The notes below the pieces were generated by a model that did no database searches, had not been told where the DNA came from, and was given only the letters and a program-made list of their open reading frames with translations. From an uncultured Rubrobacteraceae bacterium (GTDB lineage Bacteria; Actinomycetota; Rubrobacteria; Rubrobacterales; Rubrobacteraceae), in contig CADCVE010000092.1 in NCBI GenBank assembly GCA_902806065.1, positions 1 through 64,000 of the forward strand: a stretch of 64,000 nucleotides of DNA. The letters run 5' to 3'. Below, in pieces: positions 2,468 to 25,819 of this stretch (the stretch's first letter is position 1; each line of letters begins with the position of its first letter). The translations under genes were made by a program, and so were the position numbers.

Positions 2468-3904
2468 CTAACCGAAGTGCTGACCGTGGAAGCCGAACGG
2501 GATGTGGTGTGGTACCCGCGCCCGCGCCTCCTCGGTGAAAGAGCTTGCGTTCATCACTAGCAAAAAGGAAGTGCCCGCCGCTGTATCGAGGACGACGGAG
2601 AGGATCACGCCGGAGTCCTCGCCCTGACCGTTCGGCGCGGGGATGAAGACGGGCTCGCCGGGATAACAACCGTCCTCGCACCAGGTCCGTGTAGAGCCGT
2701 TGCGGACGTCTACCTTTACGAGCCGATCCGGCCATCCTTGCGTGATCCTGTTCTGGCCGATGCCGTAGACGTAGGAATAGTCGCGGCCGTTATGGGCATC
2801 GTAGTTTATGCGCGGTAGCTCCAGGGGTTCGCCCGTCAGAACCTCGTAGCTCGCGGAGCCACCGGGGCGGAGGCGGTAGCGGCGTAGTTCCGCGGCGGCG
2901 GTAGGGGCTTCGTGCGATAAGAGTGCGTCCATGTAGTGGTCCTGGATCACGGCGTCGTCCGGGTAGGCGAGTAGGTCCACAACGATCTCACCACCCTTCT
3001 CGAAGGCATTGACGTGATGGAAGGCGAAGAACGCCTCCGTCTCCCAACTCCCGACGAGCACACCGCTCTCCTTGTTCACTGCGTGGAAACGAGTCGGCCG
3101 TTCCGGCTTCCATTGAAGGTTCTCGGCGTAGGGTTTGCCGGTCAAGAGCATCTTCGCGGGGTTGACGACCAGCGGGTACTCCGCGAGCACGACGTAGTGT
3201 TTCGTGAGGCCGAAGCTGTGCATGTAGGCGGGCTCGCTCGCTGGTATCTCGGCCATTACCTCTCTGCGGGGCGCACCGGCCTGCGCGGCAATTCGGAAGA
3301 TTTTGTATGAGCAGTGGCGGGAGAAGTGGGTGATGGTGTTGAAGGCCTCGCCGGTCTTCGGGTCGTTATGGGGGTGGGGCGAGGTACCGATGCCTTGAAC
3401 GTTATCCTCGTACTCGATGACGCCGACGGTCTGCAGCGTCTCGGGGTCGAACTCTACCGGCAGGGGCGTCTCGGTGAGGGCGACGAAGCGCCCGGCTAGT
3501 TTGTGAACGCTGACGCTGGCGTTGCTACCGAACTGTGGAGAGAACGCGCTCGTGAGCCGTTTGAAGATCGAACGGCAAGGGTCGGTAGCGAACTCGCCGT
3601 AGCCGATGCGGCCCTTTCTTTGGACGTGGAGGTACTGGGGGCTGCGCAGGTACTTATTGGCGTAGGAGACCCGGCCCCCGTGGAAGCCAAAGCGGTGAAG
3701 CATCGCGAGGCCGTCGAACCAGTGACGCATTCGGGTCCTGCCCGCCCCCCAGGTGCCCGGCCCGTTACGGAAGAGCGTCCCGCGCAGCCACATGGGCATA
3801 CTGCCTTCGACGGGCAGGGCATCTAGCTCGAACTCGCCTTCTAGCGGCGAGAACCCCAGGCGATGATCCGTATTCACCTCACTGTCTTCCACGGAGCCGG
3901 GCAA
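2468..3904 (-). CDS. carotenoid cleavage dioxygenase (RPE65/CCO family)
   Basis: A 478-residue non-haem iron enzyme of the carotenoid oxygenase family, which splits carotenoid or stilbene-type double bonds with oxygen to give aldehydes. The four iron-binding histidines are visible in order: H177 in SPHPHNDP, H229 in YMHSFGLT, H296 or H297 in FAFHHVNAF, and H473 in GFHGQHFG. The N-terminal LRGTLFRNGPG and HWFDGLAMLHRF blocks are also typical. Full family length and no signal peptide, so cytosolic or membrane-associated. It starts 6 bases after the stop of the upstream baeRF-like gene, so the two probably share a transcript. Pigmented Rubrobacter strains make carotenoids; no carotenoid synthesis gene is in the window. 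Confidence 0.93.
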   Translation of the reverse strand: MPGSVEDSEVNTDHRLGFSPLEGEFELDALPVEGSMPMWLRGTLFRNGPGTWGAGRTRMRHWFDGLAMLHRFGFHGGRVSYANKYLRSPQYLHVQRKGRIGYGEFATDPCRSIFKRLTSAFSPQFGSNASVSVHKLAGRFVALTETPLPVEFDPETLQTVGVIEYEDNVQGIGTSPHPHNDPKTGEAFNTITHFSRHCSYKIFRIAAQAGAPRREVMAEIPASEPAYMHSFGLTKHYVVLAEYPLVVNPAKMLLTGKPYAENLQWKPERPTRFHAVNKESGVLVGSWETEAFFAFHHVNAFEKGGEIVVDLLAYPDDAVIQDHYMDALLSHEAPTAAAELRRYRLRPGGSASYEVLTGEPLELPRINYDAHNGRDYSYVYGIGQNRITQGWPDRLVKVDVRNGSTRTWCEDGCYPGEPVFIPAPNGQGEDSGVILSVVLDTAAGTSFLLVMNASSFTEEARARVPHHIPFGFHGQHFG

Positions 3905-3910
3905 CGCCTG

Positions 3911-5104
3911 CTAGTAGCGGAGTAGACCGGCGAACCCCTCGAACTCCTCGCGCAGCACGCTGGCGGCGTCTCTCCGGTTGCGCTCCTTCTCGATGTCCTC
4001 GTTGGGAGTCTCACCGAACTCGTCGCGGTCGCCGCGGACGCTGCCAGTGCGCACGTACTCCAGGCGAGCGCCACGCGCGGTAGCGAGGTCTATGATGACG
4101 TCTGTAAGGTCACGAACCCTCGTGTCCCGGCGGCAGTAGGGGCATTCTTCCTGGGCAATATTGGTGATGGCGAGCTGGTCGTGGTCGCACCAGCGGATCT
4201 CGCCGTTCAGGTCATAGAGGGCGATGAGGTGATAGACCCTACCTTCCTGAAGCGCCTCGATGGTGTCATTGATGCCACGCACCCCATTCTCGCGGGCCTG
4301 CCCGATGAGATCGTCCTCGCGTGCTCTCTCGGCCTTCTGCTGTATCTCCTCGAACTGTTCCAGGATCTCGTTCTCCGGAGCGTTGGCGGCGACCGCCTCC
4401 TCGGCGACTACCTTCTCTTTCACGGGCTCGGGGAGCGTCTCCCGGAAGGTGGAGGTCCTCTCCTTCGGCCCGGCGATAATGAGGTTCTTGACGTTGTCTT
4501 GGGCGACGAGCTTCTGCGTTAGCTCGCCCACATCCTTGTAGAAGCGGTAGATGTTCGAGTCTTGTTTGCGGCCGGCCGGGTCCAGGTCCGTCTGGCCGCC
4601 ACCCCTGGGGTATGGTCTGGAGGGCTTGAGGTCTACCTCGCGGAAGAAGCCGCTGCTCGCGCCGTCGCTGCCCCGCGCGGGATCGCCCATCGGGGCGGAG
4701 ACGAAGAAACGGAACTCCTCCGCGTCTACGAGCGCCACCCCGTAAGACTCGTGCTCGTCGAGCGCCAATATCAGTGGCGCAAGGTACGGCTCCCCGAAGT
4801 GGTAGGCCTCCGGGAGGTCCAACTGCAACTCATAACGCTCGAAAAGACCATCCCCGGCGGCGAAGAAGACCAGGGTGCGCGCGTGCTGATGCACCTGCCC
4901 CTCGATCGAATCCCATACCCGCCCGGAGATCTCCTCCGGCAACTCTTCCATCTCCCTCAAAGCATCCTTCAAGCGCACCTTGTACGCCTGACCCTGGTTC
5001 TCCGGGATCCGGGCATTTACGCTCAAATATACTGAGAGCACCGGCCCCGGATGACCCTCCAAACGCTCCTTGAGCCTCTTTATATCCTCAGCCTGCGCGG
5101 CCAT
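3911..5104 (-). CDS. baeRF/VLRF1-type release-factor-like protein
   Basis: A 397-residue protein with the layout of bacterial archaeo-eukaryotic release factor (baeRF, Vms1-like) families: an N-terminal alpha/beta domain opening PGPVLSVYLSVNARIPENQG, a middle domain (VKNLIIAGPKERTSTF) and a C-terminal L7Ae-like domain with a zinc-knuckle-like CPYC. It ends FEGFAGLLRY, like the GIGALLRY-type tail of this group. Family members act on peptidyl-tRNA in stalled ribosomes or are thought to; whether this one hydrolyses anything is unknown. The ATG follows GAGAGGTGG. It is the first gene of a likely two-gene transcript with the carotenoid oxygenase. Confidence 0.75.
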   Translation of the reverse strand: MAAQAEDIKRLKERLEGHPGPVLSVYLSVNARIPENQGQAYKVRLKDALREMEELPEEISGRVWDSIEGQVHQHARTLVFFAAGDGLFERYELQLDLPEAYHFGEPYLAPLILALDEHESYGVALVDAEEFRFFVSAPMGDPARGSDGASSGFFREVDLKPSRPYPRGGGQTDLDPAGRKQDSNIYRFYKDVGELTQKLVAQDNVKNLIIAGPKERTSTFRETLPEPVKEKVVAEEAVAANAPENEILEQFEEIQQKAERAREDDLIGQARENGVRGINDTIEALQEGRVYHLIALYDLNGEIRWCDHDQLAITNIAQEECPYCRRDTRVRDLTDVIIDLATARGARLEYVRTGSVRGDRDEFGETPNEDIEKERNRRDAASVLREEFEGFAGLLRY

Positions 5105-12857: not shown

Positions 12858-13301
12858 ATGATCCGCGAAGAAGCCACCGAGATGATCCTGGAAGCCAAAA
12901 AGGAGAAGGAACTTACCTTCGAGGTGATCGCCCGGAAGGTCGGGGCACACAAGGTCTGGACCACGGCGGCCTTAATGGGCCAGCATCCGATGACCGCCGA
13001 GCAAGCTGACACTGTAGTCGACCTCCTCGACCTCGACTCCGAGGTCGCCAGGGCCTTGCAGGAGATACCGTTGCGTGGCGCCCTCGATCAGGACGTGCCC
13101 ACCGACCCCACAATCTACCGTATCCACGAGGTCACCCAGGTCTATGGTACGACCATCAAAGCCCTTATCAACGAAGAGTTCGGCGACGGTATCATGAGCG
13201 CCATAACCTTCCACATGGACATAGAGAGGGAGGAGTCCGAAGCGGGTCCGCGCGTCAAGATCACGTACAACGGCAAGTTCCTCCCTTATACGTGGGAGTA
13301 A
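12858..13301 (+). CDS. cynS: cyanate hydratase (cyanase)
   Basis: A 147-residue enzyme that converts cyanate and bicarbonate to carbamate and CO2; carbamate then gives ammonia. It has the helical N-terminal domain ([20 protein letters not shown]) and the catalytic C-terminal region with Arg, Glu and Ser in [20 protein letters not shown] and [10 protein letters not shown]. It ends [10 protein letters not shown], close to the usual family ending. Length is about that of the family. Ribosome binding site AAAAGGAGAG. It sits between the relic of ureA and intact ureB, which is unusual; cyanate forms from urea, so the pairing makes metabolic sense. Confidence 0.96.
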
Positions 13302-14378: not shown

Positions 14379-14610
14379 TTACACGCCTTATTGGCCTCCA
14401 CGCCGCGTGTCCTTGCGCCGGCCAGCGTCCCCGAACCTGTCTCTACGCGGTTTGTATATTGGCTAGAGATGCCACCGCCCTGTACCGGGTGCTGAACGGC
14501 TGCTGGACGACAGCGCGGACATACCTGAACACACCGCCCCCGCTCGGGAGGTGTGGTAGCGTAGAAAGTCCAGCTTATCAGAGAATATAGAGGAACATGG
14601 GGGAGTGGGA

Positions 14611-15861
14611 ATGCAACTTTTCGAGAAGCTAATAGATTATGCACAGGCCGTCAGGCTTGTGCTGGAGAACACAGCCCGCCTGCCGGTCGCGTGGGTGCCG
14701 CTCATGGACGCTCGGGGGCTCGCTCTCGCCGAGGACATAGCTGCGAGATTCGATTCCCCGCCGTTCGACAACTCCGCGGTGGATGGTTACGCGGTACGGA
14801 GCGCGGACGCCGCCGAGGCTGGCAGGACCTTCGAGGTCGTGGATGAGGCTCCGGCGGGACGGCCTGCCCGGAGGAGTGTCGGGGAGGGAGAGGCCATCAA
14901 GATCTTCACCGGCGGTGTAATCCCCGAAGGGGCGGACGCGGTCGTGATGGTCGAGAATACCTCCGGCTGGGGCGAGGAGTTCGAACTCAAAAAGGCTACG
15001 ACACCGGGTAGCAATCTTCGCGCCGCTGGCGAGGACGTGCGCGAGGGCGACATCATGCTGCGCGCGGGCACGGAGATAGGCGCCCCCGAGATAGCCCTCG
15101 CCGCAACGCAGGGCTACGGCGAGTTGCCCGTCTACCGCAGGCCCAGGGTCGTCGTCCTCTCCACCGGCACCGAGCTGGTCGAGCCGGGCACGCGTGACCT
15201 CTCGCCCGGCGAGATCTTTGACTCCAACTCCTTCGCCCTACTCGCCCAGGCCCGTGAGGCTGGCGCTGATGCTCGCCGTCTCTACGCGGCCTCCGATGAC
15301 GCGGACATCCTCAAGTCCGCGATGGAGGAGGCTCTGGCGAGCGCGGACGTCGTGGTAACCAGCGGCGGGGTCTCGGTGGGGGAGAAGGATCTCGTGAAGG
15401 GCACGCTCCTGGACTTAGGCGTCGAGCAGGTGTTCTGGGGGATCAAACTAAAACCCGGCAAACCAGTCTTTTTCGGCACGCGGGAGGGCGCCCGCTTCTT
15501 CGGTCTGCCGGGGAATCCCGTCTCCGCGATGGTCTGCGCCGAGCTCTTCGTCCGGCCCGCCCTGATGAAGATGATGGGCCGGAAGGACAGACATCGCCCT
15601 CACATCGAGGTGTACTTTGACGAGGACGTCGAGAACAAGTTCGGCCGGATGCACGCGATACGCGTCACGCTGAACCGGACAGAGAGGGGCTGGAGGGCTG
15701 AATCGGTGGGGGCCCAAGGGTCGGGGCTGGTCAGCTCTCTCACTAAAGCGGATGCCCTGGCGCTCATCGGCCCCGAGTCCGAGGGAGTGCGGGCGGGGGA
15801 GCCGGTCGAGGCCATAGTGCTGCGTGAGGAGGTTGTTCTGGCCCAACGCCCGGTCAACTAG
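14611..15861 (+). CDS. moeA: molybdopterin molybdotransferase MoeA
   Basis: A 416-residue enzyme that inserts molybdenum into adenylylated molybdopterin, completing the cofactor. Diagnostic blocks are DNSAVDGYAVRSADA, GEAIKIFTGGVIPEGADAVV, VVVLSTGTELVEPG, FDSNSFALLAQ, VVTSGGVSVGEKD and FGLPGNPVSAM. These cover domain 1, the MPTb-binding domain 3 and the C-terminal domain 4. ATG 14611 follows GGGGGAGTGGG. It lies alone in this window; its likely clients include the two sulfite-oxidase-fold enzymes at 49-53 kb. Confidence 0.95.
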   Translation: MQLFEKLIDYAQAVRLVLENTARLPVAWVPLMDARGLALAEDIAARFDSPPFDNSAVDGYAVRSADAAEAGRTFEVVDEAPAGRPARRSVGEGEAIKIFTGGVIPEGADAVVMVENTSGWGEEFELKKATTPGSNLRAAGEDVREGDIMLRAGTEIGAPEIALAATQGYGELPVYRRPRVVVLSTGTELVEPGTRDLSPGEIFDSNSFALLAQAREAGADARRLYAASDDADILKSAMEEALASADVVVTSGGVSVGEKDLVKGTLLDLGVEQVFWGIKLKPGKPVFFGTREGARFFGLPGNPVSAMVCAELFVRPALMKMMGRKDRHRPHIEVYFDEDVENKFGRMHAIRVTLNRTERGWRAESVGAQGSGLVSSLTKADALALIGPESEGVRAGEPVEAIVLREEVVLAQRPVN

Positions 15862-15957
15862 ACGCTGTCTGTACGGCGAGGATGATGAGCGCGGAGCATC
15901 GTGGCGGGGGATACGATGTGGGGTGCGATAATAACGGTAATGAGTTAAAGGCGTGCC

Positions 15958-16116
15958 ATGAGACTAGTGACCCGCAAAGAGGAAGTGCCCGCTAGCCTCG
16001 GTCGTCCGCCGCTCGTGCTGCGCCTGCGGCCAGACTTGTACATTGGCGGTGCTCACCGAACCTTCGTCGGGCTGTGCAGAGACACTTCTTTAGGGACCGG
16101 TAGCCGACGGCTATAG
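15958..16116 (+). CDS. small ORF of 52 codons, doubtful
   Basis: ATG 15958 opens a 52-codon frame (MRLVTRKEEVPASLGRPP and onward) between moeA and the helix-hairpin-helix gene. It is basic, has no membrane segment and matches nothing I know. There is only a weak ribosome binding site (AAAGGCG). It may be chance in G+C-rich DNA; recorded because it fills most of the gap. Confidence 0.2.
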   Translation: MRLVTRKEEVPASLGRPPLVLRLRPDLYIGGAHRTFVGLCRDTSLGTGSRRL

Positions 16117-16131
16117 TAGAATCAGGGGCAT

Positions 16132-17187
16132 ATGTTCGAGTCTGACTTCGAGGACAACATCTTCCGGCGGCGCCTGATGAAGGAGGTCGCGCCGGGCTTG
16201 CCTACGCACTTCTCTTTCTACTCGCCGATGGTCAAGGTACAGGTGCAGTCGTCGGCGGAGCATCTGCCGGGAGCGAACGGCAGATACATTGGGGAGGCGG
16301 TAACTATAGAGTTCGTCCCCGAGGATGCGGCGGCGGTGGAGCGAGTACGCGAGTTCGTGTGGCAGTGGGAAGAGCACAACGAGTTTACGGCGGTACGCAA
16401 GATCAATCACCTCAGGCGCGGCGTAGACCCGGAGAGCGTGCAGGGCATTCTGGAGCGGGTGCGCGGCGTAGACAAGCGGGCCGCCGCCAAGGCCGCCGAG
16501 AATGCCTGTCCCGAAGAGCTGAGAGAGATGATAGAGACGGAGGACGCCAAGGCCCTCGCCCGCCTTCCGGGGCTCGGGGAGAAGCGGGCCTACGCCGTGG
16601 TCGAGTTCTACAGGAATCAGAAGAGTCCTCGCCGCTTTCTATACGCCGCGAACCGCAACGACCGTTTCCGCGGGGCGCCGGTTATCACGGAGCTCGACCT
16701 CTCCGGGGATCTCCAGGCGCAGGCCGTGAATCACGCCGTTCGGGCGCAGTCCCTCGGCGACCCGGACCCCTTGAGCCCGAACGAGCCGCCGGGGCACACG
16801 ACGGTACGCGGCCCTAACCTCTCGCATCCCTTGCCGATGACGCCCTCCTTGATGGGCCGGAGCGTCTACTACCCGGAGCAGGTCTCGCTCTTCGCCGATC
16901 TCTTGCGGCGCGTGCTCGTTGATGGAGAGAGGCTCGCCGGGGTGGATACCTTGCGGATACAACGCGGCAAGGTCTTCCACACGACCAAGCTCTCCGGCGT
17001 CGGCGTGAAGACGCGGGCCAGGGTACTCGCGAGCGGTCTCCTCGACACCGAGTACACCTACGAGAACCTCGTCGGCATCCCCGGCATCACCGAAACGCAG
17101 GCACGCACCATCGCCGAGGCGGCTAGAGGAGACGTGGAGGCCGCCAGAAACGGGGGGCTCTCCCGGATGGAGGTACGTGTCCCCTAG
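16132..17187 (+). CDS. helix-hairpin-helix DNA-binding-like protein of unknown role
   Basis: A 351-residue soluble protein I cannot assign to a named family. It has two helix-hairpin-helix motifs of the non-specific DNA-binding type, LARLPGLGEKRAYAVVEF (about residues 143-160) and LVGIPGITETQARTIAEAA (about 306-324). The N-terminal 90 residues (FYSPMVKVQVQSSAEHLPG and onward) look like an alpha/beta domain. A less ordered Pro-rich stretch (about 205-235) separates the halves. Its stop overlaps the start of the DEDDh exonuclease/GIY-YIG gene by 11 bases, so the pair is co-translated. A DNA repair or processing role is likely by context. Confidence 0.72.
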   Translation: MFESDFEDNIFRRRLMKEVAPGLPTHFSFYSPMVKVQVQSSAEHLPGANGRYIGEAVTIEFVPEDAAAVERVREFVWQWEEHNEFTAVRKINHLRRGVDPESVQGILERVRGVDKRAAAKAAENACPEELREMIETEDAKALARLPGLGEKRAYAVVEFYRNQKSPRRFLYAANRNDRFRGAPVITELDLSGDLQAQAVNHAVRAQSLGDPDPLSPNEPPGHTTVRGPNLSHPLPMTPSLMGRSVYYPEQVSLFADLLRRVLVDGERLAGVDTLRIQRGKVFHTTKLSGVGVKTRARVLASGLLDTEYTYENLVGIPGITETQARTIAEAARGDVEAARNGGLSRMEVRVP

Positions 17188-19021
17188 CCTCTACGGCTTC
17201 GTCAAGAGCCGTGAACCCGTGACCCCCGAGGAGGTCACCCAAGCACTTTCTCTACCGTCAAACGGCGACGCTCGTGCCTACATCGAAGGCATGATCGCGC
17301 AAGACCCACGCTTTCTCTGGGACGAGGGCTCTCTGCGTACCGCTGATGTAGCCTCCGTGCCCCTGGATGAGGCGCCTTACGTGGTCTTTGACGTCGAGAC
17401 CACGGGTTCGTCGTCCAAGCAGGGTGCGATCACCGAGATCGGGGCTTTGAAGGTAGTGCGTGGGGTGGTGGTGGACGAGTTCTCGACGCTCCTCAACCCG
17501 GGACGTCCCATAGAGCCCTTCGTAGTAAGGCTCACCGGGATCACCGACCAGATGGTTGCCACCGCCCCGGACTCATCGGAAGTCATGCCTATATTCGAGG
17601 AGTTCACCGAGGGATGCGTCCTCGTCGGCCACAACGTTAATTTCGACTGCTCCTTCGTCGCGGCGGCGCGCGAAGCCTCCGGCCTCGCGCCGCTCTCGAA
17701 TCCCGTGCTCGACACTCTAAAGCTCGCCCGCGCGCTCGTGCCGGGCCTCAAGCGCTACCGGCTCGCCTCGCTGGTCTCGCATCTTGGAATTCACCTGGCC
17801 CCCAACCACAGAGCCCTGGCTGATGCCGCCGCCACGACCGAGGTCTTTCTCAAGCTCTTGAAGCTCCTGGGCTCTGCCGGGGTGAAGAGCGTCGGGCAGG
17901 CGGCCACAATCAAGTCGGGGGGGCGCGAACGTATCGAGCCCCAGAAAGGCCACCTCGCCGAACATCTGCCGCGCACGCCGGGGGTCTACTACTTCATGGA
18001 CAAGCACGGCACTACCCTCTACGTTGGCAAGGCCAAGGATCTCAGGAGCCGGGTGAAGACTTACTTCAACGGCGGGGACGGGCGCCGCAAGGTCGGGAGG
18101 CTCGTGCGGGAGGCCGCCGAGGTGCGCTACAAGGAGACGCCTTCGGAGCTTCACGCCCTGGTCTTCGAGGCCCGCGAGATCAAGCGCCTCCTCCCGCGTT
18201 ACAACTCCGTCGGCCGGGGTGAGAAGGCGAGTTGGTTCATCAAGCTCGACCTGAACGAACCCTACCCCGTCCCCGAGAGAGTACCTGGCAACGACCCGGG
18301 AGACGGCGTCGTATATCTCGGTCCTTACAGGAGCGCAGGTGTCCTGGATACCTGTATCGAGGCTCTGGGAAGGGTGTTTCCTCTAAGGCGTTGCGCTGGA
18401 GAACGGGAAGGCGGCGTTTGCTTCTATGGGCAGATGGGCCGGTGCGCCCCGTGTCTCGGGATGGGCGAAGAGGATTATCGTGGGGAGGTGATCGGGGGCC
18501 TCACCGCCCTCCTGCGCGGTGAGGGCGGAGAAACGCACCTCGAAGCGCTCGTCGGGGAGCGCAGACGCCTCGCGGGCGAACTGGAGTTTGAGGCAGCCGG
18601 ACGTCTGCAGAACCTGATCTCCGGTATCGAACGTATCCGCCTGACGCGGCACGTTACGACCGCCGAAGGCGTGCAGGCTGTAATCGTCCCCTCTACCGAA
18701 CCCGGGATGGTCGAGGTCTTCGCTCTATCTCAGGGCCGCCTCGTCGCCCACAAGGGCTTCGAACCAGGAGACGCAACCGGCCTAGCCCTCTTCGCCACGG
18801 AGGTGCTGACGAATCATGGCGACCTCCCGTCCGCCGCCGCGCCTGGTAGCCGTGAGGGTGTGGATGAGGCCCGAGTAGTCGCCGCATACCTCCGGCGGCG
18901 CCAGGTCGAGGTAGAGGCGGTGCGCCTGTGCGAGCCCCAGGACCTTCTGGACGCCGCGCAGAGGGTAGCCGAACGGGCAGCGGGGGCAGGAGCCGGGGCT
19001 GTCGTTGGGGCGATGGAATGA
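17177..19021 (+). CDS. DEDDh exonuclease fused to UvrC-like GIY-YIG nuclease
   Basis: A 614-residue two-nuclease protein. Residues about 65-230 are a DnaQ-type 3'-5' exonuclease with ExoI VVFDVETTG, ExoII VGHNVNFDCSF and ExoIII HRALADAAAT. Residues about 265-350 are the GIY-YIG domain: TPGVYYFMDKHGTTLYVGKA, then KDLRSRVKTYF. A UvrC-like cysteine-bearing part (CAGERE to CAPCLG) and a UVR-like helix pair follow. Such epsilon-Cho-like fusions occur in actinobacteria and are predicted repair nucleases; UvrC's RNase H-like and HhH domains are missing here, but the HhH protein encoded upstream could supply the binding part. Confidence 0.9.
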   Translation: MSPSLYGFVKSREPVTPEEVTQALSLPSNGDARAYIEGMIAQDPRFLWDEGSLRTADVASVPLDEAPYVVFDVETTGSSSKQGAITEIGALKVVRGVVVDEFSTLLNPGRPIEPFVVRLTGITDQMVATAPDSSEVMPIFEEFTEGCVLVGHNVNFDCSFVAAAREASGLAPLSNPVLDTLKLARALVPGLKRYRLASLVSHLGIHLAPNHRALADAAATTEVFLKLLKLLGSAGVKSVGQAATIKSGGRERIEPQKGHLAEHLPRTPGVYYFMDKHGTTLYVGKAKDLRSRVKTYFNGGDGRRKVGRLVREAAEVRYKETPSELHALVFEAREIKRLLPRYNSVGRGEKASWFIKLDLNEPYPVPERVPGNDPGDGVVYLGPYRSAGVLDTCIEALGRVFPLRRCAGEREGGVCFYGQMGRCAPCLGMGEEDYRGEVIGGLTALLRGEGGETHLEALVGERRRLAGELEFEAAGRLQNLISGIERIRLTRHVTTAEGVQAVIVPSTEPGMVEVFALSQGRLVAHKGFEPGDATGLALFATEVLTNHGDLPSAAAPGSREGVDEARVVAAYLRRRQVEVEAVRLCEPQDLLDAAQRVAERAAGAGAGAVVGAME

Positions 19022-19089
19022 CCCGTACATGATAAAATTAGCGGCATAATGTATAGAACTTACGGGCAGCCGTAAAGGGCGGTTAAGCT

Positions 19090-19788
19090 ATGGTGCAGGA
19101 CGTACAGGGGACAGCACGTAGAATCTTATTGGTCGACGATGAGCCGTCGATCCAGAAGATGCTCGTGCATGCTCTGGAGCGGGAAGGTTTTCAGGTAAAC
19201 GCGGTGGGGGATGGGGAGGCGGCGCTGGAGTCTTTCGGGACTTATGAGCCGCATTTGATCATCCTGGACATCATGCTGCCGAAGATAGACGGCACTGAAG
19301 TATGCCGGCGCATAAGGTCGCAGAGTGATGTTCCGATCATCATGCTTACGGCCAAGGACGACGAGATCGACCGCGTCGTGGGGTTGGAGCTTGGGGCAGA
19401 CGACTACGTTACCAAGCCGTTCGCGGTGCGAGAGCTCGTGGCCAGGGTACGTGCGATCATGCGCCGGGCCTCGGTGCCTGCGGGGCAACGTCAGGACGAA
19501 CTCAACTACGATAGTCTCAAGATCCACCTGCCAAGCCGCAGGGTTGCCGTGGTTGGGGAAGAGGTGGACCTCACATATACTGAGTTCGAGCTTCTAGTAA
19601 CGCTCGCCTCGAACCCGGGACGGGTATTCTCGCGGAGCACGCTGCTAACGCGGGTGTGGGGCGACGAGTTCCGTGACGAGCGCACGGTAGACGTACACAT
19701 CCGTCACCTGCGCGAAAAGATCGAACGCGACCCCCGGAACCCGGAGTTTATCCACACCGCCCGGGGTGTGGGGTATGTCTTCCGTTAG
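19090..19788 (+). CDS. OmpR/PhoB-family response regulator
   Basis: A 232-residue two-component regulator. The receiver domain has the acidic pair in LLVDDEPSIQ, the phosphorylated Asp in HLIILDIMLPKIDG, Thr in IIMLTAKDDE and Lys in YVTKPFAVRE. The C-terminal winged helix has DLTYTEFELLVTLASNPG and RTVDVHIRHLREKIE, the OmpR-type DNA-binding signature. The ATG overlaps no upstream gene. Its 3' end overlaps the start of the histidine kinase by 14 bases, so they form one operon. It resembles PhoP/PhoB, but its targets are not known. Confidence 0.95.
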   Translation: MVQDVQGTARRILLVDDEPSIQKMLVHALEREGFQVNAVGDGEAALESFGTYEPHLIILDIMLPKIDGTEVCRRIRSQSDVPIIMLTAKDDEIDRVVGLELGADDYVTKPFAVRELVARVRAIMRRASVPAGQRQDELNYDSLKIHLPSRRVAVVGEEVDLTYTEFELLVTLASNPGRVFSRSTLLTRVWGDEFRDERTVDVHIRHLREKIERDPRNPEFIHTARGVGYVFR

Positions 19789-21655
19789 GGACCGGCTCTT
19801 CCCGAAGCGCAAGCGCCGGCGCCCCAAAGAGACGAAGGGTGGGCACCGGGGCGAGAGCCAGTCCCGCCTTCGTCTCCCGTCTTGGCTTTCCTTCGAGCGA
19901 ATACTACTCGGGCGTGACGCCGGTTTTCGGCGCCGCATTAGCATCCAGGTTTGGCTCACGGCGCTGTTCTTGATCGTGACTACGTTCGCTGCGGGTACGG
20001 CGTATTCCATCATCTATCCCAGGCTCGAGAGTACCCTGAGGCAGTCGGCGCAGGCGAGCTTCAGGCAGGTAGGTGAGGAGTACGAGGAGCGGCTCCAGAG
20101 CAACCCTCGGCTAACCGAAGAGTACATAACCTTTTATGCGATCAACCGCGGCGTCCAGTGGGGCGTGGTTCGCCAGGGGGACGGCGAGGTTCTCAGAGGA
20201 GACCCCGGCGAATTTGTACCCGAGGTGGTGAATGAGGCCGTCTCGGACCAGGCTCCCAAGACGGACCTTCAAACGGTCGAGAGCGGCGATCGCGAGGGAC
20301 AGACACTCGCGACTTATGCCGCCCCGATAAAGGTCTCCGGTGAGCCCGAAACCGCGGCGCTCGTATTCACCAGGTACTACACGCGGAGCGACATCGAGAA
20401 CGCGGGCGAGTCGCTTAACAGGATCAACAGGCTCGCGCTGCTCGCGGGGGCCCTGGCGCTACTCATTGCGGGCTTCTCCGGCTACGTGGTGGCTAACCTG
20501 CTCTCCCGCCGCCTCAGCCGCCTCGATACGGCCGCCCGTCGCCTCGCCGCCGGTAACTTCGACGAGCGCATAACTACCAGCATCGAGGACGAGGTAGGCT
20601 CTCTGGGAGAGACGTTCAATACGATGGCCTCCTCTCTGAAAGGTGCATTCCGCCAGGCCGAGCAGGAGAAGGCGCGCAGCCAGGCCATCCTCTTCGGCAT
20701 GACCGACGCGGTTATCGGCGTGGACAGGGACCTGAACGCCACCTTCCTCAACCCTCGCGCCCGCGAGCTCCTCGAAAACTCGGACCTCGCCTTTCAGGAC
20801 CGCCTGCAGGAGGTGCTCGCCAAGAGCCGCTTCTCCGGCCCGGTCACCGAGCCCGAAGTCGAGGCAGGCGATGCGATTATCGAGATACGAGCCGCCCCTC
20901 TGGAGGACGGAGCACTCGCGATCCTGCGTGACGTCACCGAGCAGCGCCAGATAGAACACGCCAAGGCCGAGTTTATCGCCAACGCCTCCCACGAGCTGAA
21001 GACCCCCCTCTTCGCCCTCCAGGGCTACCTCGAGATGCTTGAAGACGAAGAGGACGAAGAGGTCCGCACGGACTTCTTGAAGGACATGAAGGCCCAGACC
21101 GAACGCCTCAAGAGCCTCGCCAAGATCCTCCTAGACCTCTCTCGTCTCGACGCGAACGCCGTGACCTTCCGTCTGGAAGAGGTGGACCTCGAAGACCTCC
21201 TGCATGAGATCCGGCGCGACTTCGCCTACACGGGGCGTGAGATCCACATCAACGCTGAAGAGGGCCTCCCCCCGGTCAACACCGACCCGATACAGCTCCA
21301 CCGTATGCTCGCCATCCTGGTGGACAACGCGCTCAAGTACTCCGGTGGACCAGGAGGCACGGAGCCCGTGAACCTCGACCTCCACCGCGAGAACGGTCAC
21401 GCCCTTGTCAGCGTCACCGACCGCGGCTGCGGCATCCCCGAAGCCGAGATCCCCCACATCTTCGACCGCTTCTACCGCGCCCAGGGCTCCTCCCGCGCCG
21501 ATGGCACCGGCCTTGGCCTGGCACTCGCCGGTGAGATCTCCCAACACCTCGGCGGCGATATACGCGTCGAGAGCGCCCCAGACCTCGGCAGTACCTTCTC
21601 CGTAGAACTCCCACTAGCCGAGAATGGCGCTAACCAAGACCCGCCGACAAAGTAA
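19775..21655 (+). CDS. sensor histidine kinase (PhoR-like: HAMP, PAS, HisKA, HATPase)
   Basis: A kinase of about 626 residues that should phosphorylate the response regulator encoded just before it. Order: basic N-terminus, membrane helix 1 (IQVWLTALFLIVTTFAAG), an extracytoplasmic sensor of about 140 residues, membrane helix 2 (LALLAGALALLIAGFSGYVV), HAMP (LLSRRLSRLDTAARRLA), PAS, the phosphoacceptor His in FIANASHELKTPLFALQG, then N box (LVDNALKYSG), G1 (DRGCGI) and G2 (GTGLGLALAG). ATG 19775 is preferred to GTG 19766. A PhoR role is suggested by layout only. Confidence 0.93.
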   Translation: MSSVRDRLFPKRKRRRPKETKGGHRGESQSRLRLPSWLSFERILLGRDAGFRRRISIQVWLTALFLIVTTFAAGTAYSIIYPRLESTLRQSAQASFRQVGEEYEERLQSNPRLTEEYITFYAINRGVQWGVVRQGDGEVLRGDPGEFVPEVVNEAVSDQAPKTDLQTVESGDREGQTLATYAAPIKVSGEPETAALVFTRYYTRSDIENAGESLNRINRLALLAGALALLIAGFSGYVVANLLSRRLSRLDTAARRLAAGNFDERITTSIEDEVGSLGETFNTMASSLKGAFRQAEQEKARSQAILFGMTDAVIGVDRDLNATFLNPRARELLENSDLAFQDRLQEVLAKSRFSGPVTEPEVEAGDAIIEIRAAPLEDGALAILRDVTEQRQIEHAKAEFIANASHELKTPLFALQGYLEMLEDEEDEEVRTDFLKDMKAQTERLKSLAKILLDLSRLDANAVTFRLEEVDLEDLLHEIRRDFAYTGREIHINAEEGLPPVNTDPIQLHRMLAILVDNALKYSGGPGGTEPVNLDLHRENGHALVSVTDRGCGIPEAEIPHIFDRFYRAQGSSRADGTGLGLALAGEISQHLGGDIRVESAPDLGSTFSVELPLAENGANQDPPTK

Positions 21656-21730
21656 ACTAAATTCAACTTCGCTTAATTTTAATTAAGTTTCCTCTACCGC
21701 TCCGAAACCTTTAGCTGTAGAATACGGCCT

Positions 21731-21790
21731 GGGGCAGCAACTGGTTCGTGGATTCTCCCCCCTCCCCGCGAACCGAAAGCTGCCCCTTTC
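21731..21790. terminator. nested hairpin between convergent genes
   Basis: GGGGCAGC (21731-21738) pairs with GCTGCCCC (21779-21786), and inside it GGTTCG (21743-21748) pairs with CGAACC (21769-21774); TTTC follows. It lies between the stops of the plus-strand kinase and the minus-strand M50 protease, so it probably ends transcription from one or both sides. A second small A+T-rich hairpin (CTTAAT/ATTAAG, 21672-21687) lies closer to the kinase stop. Confidence 0.6.
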
Positions 21791-21814
21791 GTATGCGTTT
21801 TCGCTTTCCGAACC

Positions 21815-22453
21815 CTAGCCGAAGAGGGGTGGTATCCCGAAGACCGAGAGGATCGGGCTCACCACGGACAGAAGGAATCCGAAAGGCGAGACGCCCGGCA
21901 GGAACGAGAGAAGAACCAGGCCGAGCAGTATGTACGGGCCGTACTGGTTCATGAAGTTTACGAAGCCATTTAGAAAGCGCGGGAGAAACGGATAGAGCAC
22001 CTTCGCGCCATCGAGCGGGGGTATGGGGATGAGGTTGAAGACGAAGAGTAAGGCGTTGACGAACGCTATCCCGAGGACGGAGAAGAGTACGAGCCTGCCC
22101 TGAAAGGGTCCGAGCCGTATCAAGACGGCGCAGAGCGCGACGATCGCCAGGTTCGCGGCCGGACCCGCGAACGCGACGGCGACGCCCCCCCACTTGCCAC
22201 CCCTGAGCTTGGAGAGTTCGACTGGGACCGGACGGCCCCACCCGAAGCCGACCATAACCAGCATCAGGCTCCCGAGCAAGTCCAAGTGCGACGCCGGGTT
22301 GAGCGTCACCCGCCCGTCGCGATAGGCCGTATCGTCACCCAGCAGATAGGCTGAGGTCGCGTGAGATGCCTCGTGCAGCACGATCCCAACGGCGAACCCG
22401 AGGAGCATAGCGACCGCCACGATCGGGAACTGTTCGAAGATAGATAGGAACAT
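21815..22453 (-). CDS. site-2-protease-type zinc metalloprotease (M50)
   Basis: A 212-residue polytopic membrane protein with the intramembrane zinc site HEASHATSAYLLGD (HExxH) near residue 28 and the second site NLIPIPPLDGAKVL, whose Asp is the third ligand. Six hydrophobic segments are visible. This short form without PDZ domains is the Rubrobacter/Bacillus-like minimal M50B peptidase. Substrate unknown; family members cut anti-sigma factors or pro-sigma factors inside the membrane. The ATG is 48 bases upstream of the start of the degenerate LytM gene's stop region. Confidence 0.9.
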   Translation of the reverse strand: MFLSIFEQFPIVAVAMLLGFAVGIVLHEASHATSAYLLGDDTAYRDGRVTLNPASHLDLLGSLMLVMVGFGWGRPVPVELSKLRGGKWGGVAVAFAGPAANLAIVALCAVLIRLGPFQGRLVLFSVLGIAFVNALLFVFNLIPIPPLDGAKVLYPFLPRFLNGFVNFMNQYGPYILLGLVLLSFLPGVSPFGFLLSVVSPILSVFGIPPLFG

Positions 22454-22500
22454 CGCCTAATATTACACTCGCGTGCGCGGGAACGCGGCGGAGGGTTACG

Positions 22501-23364
22501 TCAACTGGTCTGCGAAGCAGATACCGTGACGTGGTTACCGGTATCCGAGGTGTAGTCCGCGAGCTGGGGACGAAGGACCTTCGCGGAGTCCGCCACGCTG
22601 CCGAGTTCGGTGATACCGGCCGTTACGGGTGTTTTGGGGCCGACCTCGCTATTTATGTCCTGGATGAGTGAGATGGACACCCTGACGTTCGGGTTCTCGG
22701 CTGGTTTTATCTCCACGACGTTGGCATTCTCCTTTAGCACGGGGTCCGGGCGTATGGCCGTCACCGTACCGGTCACGGGCGCGTAGACCGCCGTCCCCGC
22801 TTCGGCTCCGACGTCCAGGGCGCCTGTTACCGGACCCAGGCGGCTAGCCGGGTCCATGAGGTAGTACTGGATCCTTTCGGGCGTCGCGTCGTTTGCGAAG
22901 AGCCCAAGCAGGGGGTTCCCGGAGAGGTTTTTTCCGCGCGGCGACATCTCGGTGAGGCTCTTGCCCTCCGGATGGTATCCGAGCCCCTTAACGTCTTCGG
23001 GTCGAACGGGACTTGAGACGGCGGTCCCGGCGACCTCTGCCAGTACCGTGTCCGGCCCCGCGTTATTCGAGTCTATCGGGAGAGTCCGTTCGCTCGCCCC
23101 CGAACTCTGCATAAATGCCGCGGGCACGAGCGCGAGTATACCCAGCAGCACTACCACGGAGATGGCGAGCAACCGTCGCCGCAGGTAGACGTTCGTCTCT
23201 TTCGATTTGCCACGCGTCGTGCGAGGTCCGGTTGGACGCTCGGACCGGCGTCCCTCGGCACCGTCGCGCCCGGACGGCTGTATCGGCCGGTCTGGCGTCT
23301 GGGGAGTGACGTTTGAGAGCTTGGGCCCAAGATATTGTGTCCGTTGTGTATTACCCCCTCTCAT
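22501..23364 (-). CDS. membrane-anchored LytM/M23-like protein lacking zinc ligands
   Basis: A 287-residue protein: a Pro/Arg-rich cytoplasmic tail of about 65 residues, one membrane helix (LLAISVVVLLGILALVPAAF) and an extracytoplasmic part. Around residues 180-215 it has ALDVGAEAGTAVYAPVTGTV, close to the DxAxxxGTPVYAPxxGxV core of M23 endopeptidases. The His normally two residues before that Asp and the later HxH are not present, so enzymatic activity is unlikely. Similar degenerate LytM proteins act as activators of amidases. ATG 23364 could be replaced by a later start; the family assignment is tentative. Confidence 0.65.
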   Translation of the reverse strand: MRGGNTQRTQYLGPKLSNVTPQTPDRPIQPSGRDGAEGRRSERPTGPRTTRGKSKETNVYLRRRLLAISVVVLLGILALVPAAFMQSSGASERTLPIDSNNAGPDTVLAEVAGTAVSSPVRPEDVKGLGYHPEGKSLTEMSPRGKNLSGNPLLGLFANDATPERIQYYLMDPASRLGPVTGALDVGAEAGTAVYAPVTGTVTAIRPDPVLKENANVVEIKPAENPNVRVSISLIQDINSEVGPKTPVTAGITELGSVADSAKVLRPQLADYTSDTGNHVTVSASQTS

Positions 23365-23493
23365 CCTGGGGCGGGATTATACATAAGGGCCGTCGGATGT
23401 AAACTGCGCTCTGCCGCAGCCTCGGGGCTGGTATATTTGTTTTGCATACAGGGGCAAGAACCCCGCTACTGGAGCAAACGCCGGAGAGAGAGC

Positions 23494-24660
23494 GTGTACG
23501 CGAAGAAGCTGGTCGTCTCGACGTACCTGCAGTACGTAGTCATTGCCCTCGGCGCGCTTCTATTATTCACGTTCGTCCGCCAGATCGGCGGTGTGCTTCT
23601 GACGTTCTTGCTGGCGGGGATACTCGCCTACGCGCTCAACCCCGTGATCCGTTGGCTGGAGGCGTGGCGGGTCCCCAGAGTAGTCGCGGTGTTCGGGGTC
23701 TTCGTGGCGCTCGTCGTGGTGGTCCTGGTAGCGCTGCTAGTCCTCATCATCCCCGCCGTCGGACAGGTACAGGCCCTGATACAGAATCCGGAGATCCTCA
23801 CTGACGGGATAACGAGCCTCGTGAGCTGGGCGCAAGGCGTACCCTACGTCGGAGAGCAGATCTCCGCCGTGGACCGGACGAGGCTTACGGAGTTCGTGCA
23901 GTCCAACGCGCCCTCGGCCGGACAGGTCGCAAACGGCGCCCTGGGCTTTATAGGCGGGGTCTTCGGCGTCTTCGGGACGATGCTCAACCTGCTGCTCATG
24001 CTTATAGTCTCCATATACCTCCTGTTGGATAAGGAGAGGATCTCGGGCGCCGCGCTGGGCGCGGTGCCGGGGACGATCCGGGACCAGACCGTCGGCCTCT
24101 TTCACGCCGTCGAGAGTGCCCTGGTCAAGTACCTCAAGGCACAGCTCTCTCTGTGTGTGATCATGGGCGTCCTGGGCTGGGCTATCTCCTACTTCACGTT
24201 TGGCGATTATGCGTTGCTGATCGGGCTCTGGGTCGGTGTTATGGAGATAATCCCCGTGCTCGGAGCATTCCTCGGGGCGGTCCCGGCGGTCCTGATAGCG
24301 CTCTTCACTGGTGGCCTCACCCAGGGGCTTGTAGTAGCTGGTCTCTTCCTCCTCGCTCAGCAACTCGAAGGCAACGTCCTGGTCCCAAGGATCATGGGCG
24401 GCTCCGTCGGGGTGCATCCTCTGTGGGTGCTCTTCGCAACCCTGGCCGCCACGGCTCTCTACGGTATCATCGGAGCCGTCTTCGCCGTCCCTATAGTCGC
24501 AATAATAGCCTCGGCCTTCCGCTACCTGCGCGGGACGCTTCTCTTCGAGCGGTGGCGCAAGGCCCCCGTCACGGAGGCCGTCGTGGAGATAGAGCCCAAT
24601 GTCGAGGTCTCCGGTGAGAAAACCACGGGCCTTCGAGACCCGGCGGGGAGAGAGGGGTAG
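23494..24660 (+). CDS. AI-2E/PerM-family membrane transporter
   Basis: A 388-residue integral membrane protein of the AI-2E transporter (PerM/YdiK) family, members of which export small signals or exchange ions. About eight membrane segments. Family blocks include FLLAGILAYALNPVIRWLE at the N-terminus, LLLMLIVSIYLLLDKERISG in the middle and LVPRIMGGSVGVHPLWVLFA near the end. GTG 23494 is chosen because it follows CGGAGAGAGA and places the first membrane helix normally; upstream in-frame codons to 23335 overlap the divergent LytM gene. The CDP-alcohol transferase starts 3 bases after it. Confidence 0.88.
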   Translation: MYAKKLVVSTYLQYVVIALGALLLFTFVRQIGGVLLTFLLAGILAYALNPVIRWLEAWRVPRVVAVFGVFVALVVVVLVALLVLIIPAVGQVQALIQNPEILTDGITSLVSWAQGVPYVGEQISAVDRTRLTEFVQSNAPSAGQVANGALGFIGGVFGVFGTMLNLLLMLIVSIYLLLDKERISGAALGAVPGTIRDQTVGLFHAVESALVKYLKAQLSLCVIMGVLGWAISYFTFGDYALLIGLWVGVMEIIPVLGAFLGAVPAVLIALFTGGLTQGLVVAGLFLLAQQLEGNVLVPRIMGGSVGVHPLWVLFATLAATALYGIIGAVFAVPIVAIIASAFRYLRGTLLFERWRKAPVTEAVVEIEPNVEVSGEKTTGLRDPAGREG

Positions 24661-24663
24661 GCC

Positions 24664-25269
24664 GTGGGATTGCCGCACAGAGAGCCGCGCCGCGGGCCGT
24701 TCTCCTTCAAGGAGGCTTTTCGGCGATTGATCCGCCCCCTCGCCCGTGCCCTCTCGGCGATGCGGGTCCGCCCGGACGCCCTGACCACTACCGGATGGAC
24801 TCTCGCGGTCGGCGCCGCCGTCCTTCTCGCAGTCGGCTACACCAGGGTTGGCGGCGCCGTGATGCTCCTGGCGGGCCTCTTTGACGCCCTCGACGGCGCG
24901 GTCGCCCGAGAATCGAACCAGATGAGTGACTTCGGGGCCTTTCTGGACTCGACGCTCGACAGGCTCTCCGAGTCCGCGGTCTTTGTCGGTGTGATCTACT
25001 TCTACGCGGCTTCCTCCATGCCCTACGAGGCTCTCCTCGCGGGCGTCGCCATGACCTTCTCGCTCATGACCTCCTATACTCGCGCCCGCGCCGAGGGCCT
25101 GGGCCTGCAATGCGAGGTCGGCCTCCTCGAACGCGCGGGCCGCGTCGTGATCCTCTCCGTATTTTCCATCGCGGGCCAACTGACCATCGGCGTCGCTCTC
25201 GTCGCCGCCGGAGCCCTCGTCACCACCGCCCAACGCTTCCTCCACGTTCGCCGCCATACAAAGACCTGA
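24664..25269 (+). CDS. CDP-alcohol phosphatidyltransferase
   Basis: A 201-residue membrane enzyme that joins a CDP-diacylglycerol-type donor to an alcohol such as inositol phosphate or glycerol phosphate. The diagnostic motif D-x2-DG-x2-AR-x8-G-x3-D-x3-D is complete in DALDGAVARESNQMSDFGAF followed by LDSTLDR (about residues 76-102). About five hydrophobic segments. GTG start 3 bases after the AI-2E gene, probable same transcript. The length and position fit actinobacterial PgsA-like or phosphatidylinositol phosphate synthases; the alcohol acceptor cannot be read from the sequence. Confidence 0.88.
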   Translation: MGLPHREPRRGPFSFKEAFRRLIRPLARALSAMRVRPDALTTTGWTLAVGAAVLLAVGYTRVGGAVMLLAGLFDALDGAVARESNQMSDFGAFLDSTLDRLSESAVFVGVIYFYAASSMPYEALLAGVAMTFSLMTSYTRARAEGLGLQCEVGLLERAGRVVILSVFSIAGQLTIGVALVAAGALVTTAQRFLHVRRHTKT

Positions 25270-25276
25270 AGACGCA

Positions 25277-25819
25277 ATGCCCCGCAAAACCCCCCGCGCC
25301 GCTACGAGCGACTACGAAGCAAAGCTCTCCCAAGAGACCATCCGCCTGGCTGCCCGGTCCACCCGGACAGCCCACACCAGTCCCTCACCTTTCGGCGACC
25401 CCCTCTCCGGCATCACGCTCGTCACTGAGCGGGCCACTGAGGAGGGCGCCCCGGAGATTGAGGCCAGGATGGTCCACGCCCTCCGCCGCAGCCTCGCCGC
25501 CGTAAAGCTCGATAAAGCCTACGTTACCTGGACGCACCCCGATCTCCTCGAAGAGCTGCTCTCCCTGGAACCGTCCGCCCTCGTGGCGGTCGGACCCGGC
25601 GCTGCCCGCGCCATAGACTCCCTCGCCTATCCGCTCGCCAAGGAGCCGTTCTCGGACGCCACAGAGGGCGTCTGGTTCTCCTGGACATACGGCACATTTG
25701 GTCTCAGGCTCCCCGCTCTCGCCCCGGCCCTCACTGACCCCGACGCCAAACGCCAATTCTGGCAAGCCTTCCTCGCTCTGCGCGCCCTCGCCACCGGCGG
25801 GGAACCGGGGCGCCCTTGA
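25277..25819 (+). CDS. hypothetical protein, possible glycosylase-like alpha/beta fold
   Basis: A 180-residue soluble protein I do not recognise with certainty. The middle reads GITLVTERATEEGAP, then AVKLDKAYVTWTHPD and LLSLEPSALVAVGPGAARAI. This layout of strand, helix, strand, with a final ValAlaValGly strand-turn-helix, resembles the uracil-DNA glycosylase superfamily, but no catalytic motif of that superfamily can be pointed to. It starts 7 bases after the CDP-alcohol transferase and its stop overlaps the TTG start of the next gene, so it is inside an operon of membrane genes. Confidence 0.6.
   Translation: MPRKTPRAATSDYEAKLSQETIRLAARSTRTAHTSPSPFGDPLSGITLVTERATEEGAPEIEARMVHALRRSLAAVKLDKAYVTWTHPDLLEELLSLEPSALVAVGPGAARAIDSLAYPLAKEPFSDATEGVWFSWTYGTFGLRLPALAPALTDPDAKRQFWQAFLALRALATGGEPGRP

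Follow-up and report, generated by a model that had tools for sequence, protein, structure and literature searches.

The locus described here raises the question of whether a nuclease that lacks the helix-hairpin-helix (HhH) domain of UvrC receives its DNA-binding part from a separate protein, encoded by the gene that overlaps its start. It lies in a window of 64,000 nucleotides from an uncultured Rubrobacteraceae bacterium (contig CADCVE010000092.1), to which all coordinates of this locus refer; both genes and the features described in them lie on the forward (+) strand. The first gene (16132..17187; ATG 16132 to TAG 17187) encodes an HhH protein of 351 aa that is specific to Rubrobacteraceae, and the second (17177..19021; GTG 17177 to TGA 19021) a nuclease of 614 aa. 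The two share the 11 bases from the GTG start of the nuclease gene to the TAG stop of the HhH gene (17177..17187), just as the original prediction had placed them. The gene moeA (14605-15861) is found upstream of the pair, and genes for a response regulator and then a histidine kinase follow downstream of the nuclease. On sequence criteria the ORF of the HhH protein is a real gene, since it shows purifying-type constraint (dN/dS 0.09-0.15) in 6/6 pairs tested.

As judged from its sequence, the nuclease corresponds to the N-terminal half of UvrC joined to an exonuclease, the type called Cho-like+Exo, and it exceeds the curated cut-off of the NCBIfam model NF005906 (PRK07883.1-4; 576.5 bits vs 495). 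Its AlphaFold2 model (mean pLDDT 86.5) makes visible an extra, winged-helix-like N-terminal domain (residues 1-57, 17177..17347) with the element order H-H-H-E-E and pLDDT of ~79-91. Then come a DEDDh 3'-5' exonuclease domain (residues 63-235, 17363..17881), assigned by Pfam (RNase_T/DEDDh, E 2e-36), NCBIfam, signature residues and a Foldseek match to PolC (9qpc, E 6e-14), and a GIY-YIG nuclease domain (residues 262-345, 17960..18211), assigned by Pfam (E 2e-7) and signature residues. D72, E74, D157, H211 and D216 of the DEDDh domain and Y271, Y282, G284, R292, E331 and N343 of the GIY-YIG domain are invariant in 44/44 homologues, and presumably have the roles that such residues play in these families. 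The alignment of 44 sequences also defines a Cys4 cluster (C406, C415, C423 and C426; 18392..18454), in which C406 and C415 are invariant and C423 and C426 are conserved in at least 90%. The C-terminal part comprises a UVR (UvrB-binding-type) helical hairpin (residues 452-495, 18530..18661), which is seen as helices in the AlphaFold2 model and aligns with the UVR region of UvrC, with no Pfam UVR match at E 1, and a region like the UvrC middle domain (residues 499-585, 18671..18931), recognized as part of the long UvrC profile alignment.

This alignment spans the GIY-YIG domain, the Cys4 cluster and the UVR hairpin, runs into the middle domain (E 9e-57) and breaks off ahead of the RNase H domain, at position 393 of a 659-aa UvrC frame; taken by itself, the middle-domain part reaches only 37%. 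The UvrC set contains 30 frames, of which 28 have the GVY motif and 26 have DGGKGQ, so a handful of its rows must be blank or incorrect. With the UvrC model TIGR00194 the nuclease scores 151 bits, under the cut-off of 285, and the match covers positions 1-270 of 574. Pfam detects no HhH in the nuclease and the UvrC alignment stops before the half that carries RNase H and HhH, which bears out the claim that this domain is missing. Thus, relative to UvrC, the enzyme keeps the N-terminal half, is without RNase H and HhH in its chain and has gained the DEDDh domain.

The Cho-like+Exo subfamily of GIY-YIG nucleases was described in 2006 as actinobacterial (PMC1564403). The features given there and in the NCBIfam models (NF005903-NF005907, PRK07883) agree with those of the Rubrobacteraceae enzyme: DEDDh, GIY-YIG, Cys4 and a UvrB-binding-type hairpin, no RNase H and no HhH, and an actinobacterial origin. 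According to the same source, Cho of Escherichia coli resembles these enzymes in having GIY-YIG and Cys4 without a 5' nuclease, but no exonuclease is attached to it and a C-terminal domain of its own takes the place of the UvrB-binding one (PMC1564403). What sets the Rubrobacteraceae nuclease apart from its subfamily is the overlapping HhH gene together with the winged-helix-like N-terminus, present in 23/23 family rows (three of which come from genomes entered twice) and recognized by profile in 1/20 homologues outside the family (L103, E 2e-4). Pfam gives this domain only weak HTH matches (HTH_20 in 2/16, best E 0.05), and the matches of a PDB sequence search appear irrelevant. The outside locus L103 (genome G075, 3117-5048 of its own sequence, minus strand) thus holds a non-family Cho-like+Exo enzyme with a related N-terminus, and no HhH gene adjoins it.

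The partner protein passes Pfam family cut-offs for HhH families only (HHH_5, E 1e-9 in two stretches; HHH, E 5e-7). The original prediction was therefore right about its HhH content but too low in its count of two motifs, since the protein has two (HhH)2 modules, at residues ~99-165 and 280-335, and hence about four motifs. The first module (residues 99-165, 16426..16626) is like domain II of RuvA, by profile (hhalign 97.6%, E 4e-12, 51 columns) and by structure (7oa5_F, VIA Z 9.6, rmsd 2.6, 67 aligned); a match to XPF (2bhn_C, VIA Z 7.1, rmsd 3.0, 64 aligned) may reflect only the common (HhH)2 arrangement. The likeness to RuvA concerns domain II alone, as the full-length model TIGR00084 (OB fold plus domains II and III) gives 32.3 bits against a cut-off of 85 and matches only at positions 77-126 of 202. 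The second module (residues 280-335, 16969..17136) has the UvrC-type length and fits both the C-terminal (HhH)2 of UvrC (hhalign 87.9%, 46 columns; comparison set of 27 rows) and RuvA (90.3%, 21 columns), so it is not assigned to a single family. Column shuffles reached the module scores in 0/200 cases in each of four tests.

Outside the modules the HhH protein is harder to place. A structure model of the protein alone is poor (mean pLDDT 62), and the HhH modules are its better part (pLDDT ~80-93, residues 103-164 and 280-339). The N-terminal region (residues 22-90, 16195..16401) may possibly be ferredoxin-like, as suggested from the low-confidence model by a weak match to 6wxo_B (VIA Z 5.7, rmsd 2.7, 67 aligned) at a level possible by chance. 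The middle region (residues 166-279, 16627..16968) has no assigned fold and gives no signal in profile comparisons. Across 30 sequences the mean column identity of the whole protein is 81%, residues 1-98 and 166-279 being strongly conserved; the middle region contains the stretches EPPGHTTVR and PLPMTPSLMGR and many invariant residues, among the polar ones E218, H222, R226, N229, R243, E249 and E266. PHROGs yielded no family, the PDB by sequence at best the HhH of RuvA and PolX (E 0.003-0.03), and Foldseek with the poor model nothing below E 0.001, and no relatives were found in IMG/VR or in plasmids.

The distribution of the HhH protein was followed in 396 Actinomycetota genomes, 39 of the family and 357 others, a set in which the class amounts to one family. 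It is encoded in 37/39 class genomes, including 22/22 near-complete ones. The two without a match are 60% (G025) and 77% (G014) complete; the nuclease was not found in the former either, and the latter has only a contig-edge fragment, probably of the nuclease. No homologue extending beyond the HhH stretch was detected in the 357 genomes outside the family; 24 of these (of 61 genomes matched in all) match over a short HhH stretch only and were not counted as homologues, and in two of them, G051 and G053, the match falls inside RuvA genes. A contig pattern scan, the only search reaching beyond Actinomycetota, used single-protein patterns that pick up close relatives only, and returned 5 loci, each with Rubrobacter or Rubrobacteraceae in its title.

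Outside the family, Cho-like+Exo nucleases were inspected at 20 loci drawn from 60 non-family genomes, mostly high-scoring long matches and not a random sample. None (0/20) has the HhH gene as neighbour by tblastn and family-specific profiles, HhH profiles of UvrC and RuvA on the 757 ORFs of these loci reach at best E 0.34, and no HhH was detected within the 20 enzymes themselves. The nuclease therefore has no general need of such a neighbour, and the idea that the HhH protein compensates for a general HhH loss is rejected on these loci. Rubrobacteraceae may have gained the HhH gene at a later stage. The proposal that the missing HhH is supplied in trans is attractive but only partly supported, as the neighbour and its junction are kept in the family but the neighbour is lacking at the 20/20 outside loci; likewise, the conservation expected of the pair extends through the Rubrobacteria sampled (adjacent in 30/30 Rubrobacteraceae loci) and not to actinobacteria at large (0/357 genomes).

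Within the family the order moeA, HhH gene, nuclease gene is found in 30/30 loci. A synteny control with 20 loci picked for long contigs (two of only 13-14 kb) has moeA, the response regulator, the kinase and an M50 protease in place in 20/20, a CDP-alcohol transferase in 19/20 and an AI-2E transporter in 15/20. Since the whole block downstream of moeA is syntenic, co-localisation may simply be inherited, and little can be concluded from gene order by itself; the conserved neighbourhood was accordingly dropped as an independent argument. In the window the block extends from moeA to past the CDP-alcohol transferase (14605-25819) and has a sharp boundary upstream of moeA, where genes do not keep their place; a gene for cyanate lyase just ahead of the block (12858-13301), for example, is near the same place in 3/20 relatives. 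The block includes two conserved family genes with no Pfam match at E 0.001 (22501-23364 and 25277-25819; 19/20 and 20/20 loci).

The junction of the two genes is more telling for their linkage than gene order. Their reading-frame relation is constant in 30/30 loci, unlike the spacing towards moeA and the response regulator, which varies. The overlap is of 11 nt with GTG in 26 of these loci and of 8 nt with GTG in one, with no GTG in the other three; two further loci (L118, L123) have the 11-nt GTG overlap and the same frame relation. In the tail of the HhH gene, one arginine codon supplies the first two bases of the GTG start; it reads CGT in 27/30 loci, against 61/1069 arginine codons elsewhere in the gene. 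The need to keep this start for the nuclease therefore accounts at least in part for the conserved EVRV at the C-terminus of the HhH protein. A GGAGG inside the HhH gene (17169..17173), located by sequence and the 30-locus comparison, is a candidate Shine-Dalgarno site of the nuclease. Its spacing of 3 nt from the GTG is short for such a site, and translation of the nuclease might thus start by termination-reinitiation instead of directly. A fusion by programmed +1 frameshift is not favoured, because the last sense codon varies (CCC, TCC, CTC, CAT, GTC, TCG and others) and the GTG start is kept in 27/30.

In one genus, g12, the GTG has been lost in 5/9 genomes (loci L020, L021 and L023 of G035, G028 and G034; L077 and L078 of G317 and G366), where codon 3 is an ATT that coincides with the stop of the HhH gene. 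In three of the five no ATG, GTG or TTG occurs within the first 54 codons of the nuclease, and yet the first 61 codons seem constrained (dN/dS 0.20-0.40, from a small sample). An AUU start codon, aided by coupling, is a candidate here.

A common transcript of the two genes is suggested by a -10-like element, TAGAAT (16117..16122), 9 nt before the ATG of the HhH gene, which would be their promoter. In 30/30 loci a TANAAT precedes the start codon of the HhH gene by 8-11 nt, and in 21 of them it follows a TGn. In the 20 long loci, it occurs 6-13 nt before the start of the HhH gene in 20/20, and of moeA and the response regulator in 0/20 each; among random 30-nt windows of the 30 loci, 244 in 60000 contain it, a control that takes in coding DNA and is inferior to that at start sites. 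Transcription starts about 7 nt after a -10 element, so with this spacing the mRNA would begin at, or a few bases from, the HhH start codon. A Shine-Dalgarno-like string occurs in the scanned stretch upstream of the HhH start in 6/30 loci, and a short leader is therefore possible in a few. The transcript is thus predicted to be leaderless or to have a short leader.

The best, though unproven, reading of these data is that the pair is a two-gene repair unit of Rubrobacteraceae in which the HhH protein, whose two (HhH)2 modules are of DNA-backbone-binding type, would be the dedicated DNA-targeting subunit of the nuclease (probability roughly 0.4). The 11-base overlap would couple the translation of both proteins, and either UvrB, through the UVR hairpin, or the HhH protein would bring the nuclease to DNA that is damaged or branched. 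An incision 3' of the lesion might then be made by the GIY-YIG domain, as it is by Cho, after which the DEDDh domain might resect the strand in the 3'-5' direction, starting at the nick and going through the lesion, in which case the 5' incision by an RNase H domain would not be needed. Degradation through the lesion by the exonuclease is the proposal of an earlier author, reported in PMC1564403. The nuclease chain ends where the C-terminal half of UvrC would start, which counts for the two-gene unit. The two proteins may form a physical complex, the HhH protein possibly contacting the winged-helix-like domain of the nuclease. On the whole, the interpretation from which the analysis set out is partly supported.

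Nearly as probable is that the two proteins are co-expressed but act independently, the HhH protein binding Holliday junctions, forks or other branched DNA, either unaided or as a partner of RuvB, RecA or the replisome. Its joint translation with the nuclease would then mean only that both serve DNA repair. The clear likeness of its first module to RuvA domain II speaks for this, as do the occurrence of homologous nucleases without it outside the family and its conservation, which is higher than that of the nuclease (median identity 76% vs 66% in 20 loci) and because of which it may serve something else. Against the targeting-subunit reading there is also the UVR hairpin retained in the nuclease, through which UvrB could direct the enzyme with no help from the HhH protein. 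Weighing against independent action are the frame relation and overlap kept in 30/30 loci while the distances to moeA and the response regulator vary, and the additional presence of an ordinary RuvA, over cut-off in 54/60 genomes.

The two remaining readings concern the HhH protein itself. That it is an enzyme, with a catalytic middle region acting before or after the nuclease, is improbable: the many invariant polar residues of that region fit an active site, but Pfam, NCBIfam, PHROGs and PDB searches detected no known catalytic family, and the poor model of the region says nothing on a pocket. Far less probable still is that its C-terminal half is the decayed C-terminal half of UvrC (RNase H-like plus HhH), although the second module aligns with the (HhH)2 of UvrC and one alignment runs ~40 columns further upstream (85 columns, 47%). 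The genome has a full-length UvrC of its own (G000:C23), and comparison of the middle region with the RNase H domain of UvrC stays inside shuffle noise (in four tests the observed value was equalled or exceeded by 48, 97, 62 and 57 of 200 shuffles, with both profiles shallow and the region without a good model).

A more specific form of the targeting-subunit reading, doubtful at present, is a lineage-specific two-subunit excision nuclease, in which a Cho-like+Exo enzyme and a translationally coupled structure-recognition subunit would remove lesions with a single incision, as a counterpart of SLX1-SLX4 or XPF-ERCC1. In these systems a nuclease has a separate or paired subunit that targets it to branched DNA; the analogy is functional, as no sequence relation of the HhH protein to SLX4 or ERCC1 came up.

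A literature search found no biochemical study of the Cho-like+Exo subfamily, and the open-licence literature no paper on the Rubrobacter HhH protein. An overlapping and near-universal neighbour gene in one family provides a concrete handle on the substrate of the nuclease. Radiation resistance is a known trait of some Rubrobacter species, and for this reason a family-restricted gene of repair type is a good candidate for tests there. Should the HhH protein prove to be a targeting subunit, it would exemplify how bacteria can shift the DNA-recognition part of an excision nuclease onto a chain of its own and, if the two-subunit excision nuclease holds true, Rubrobacteraceae would have a lesion-removal route that takes a single incision.
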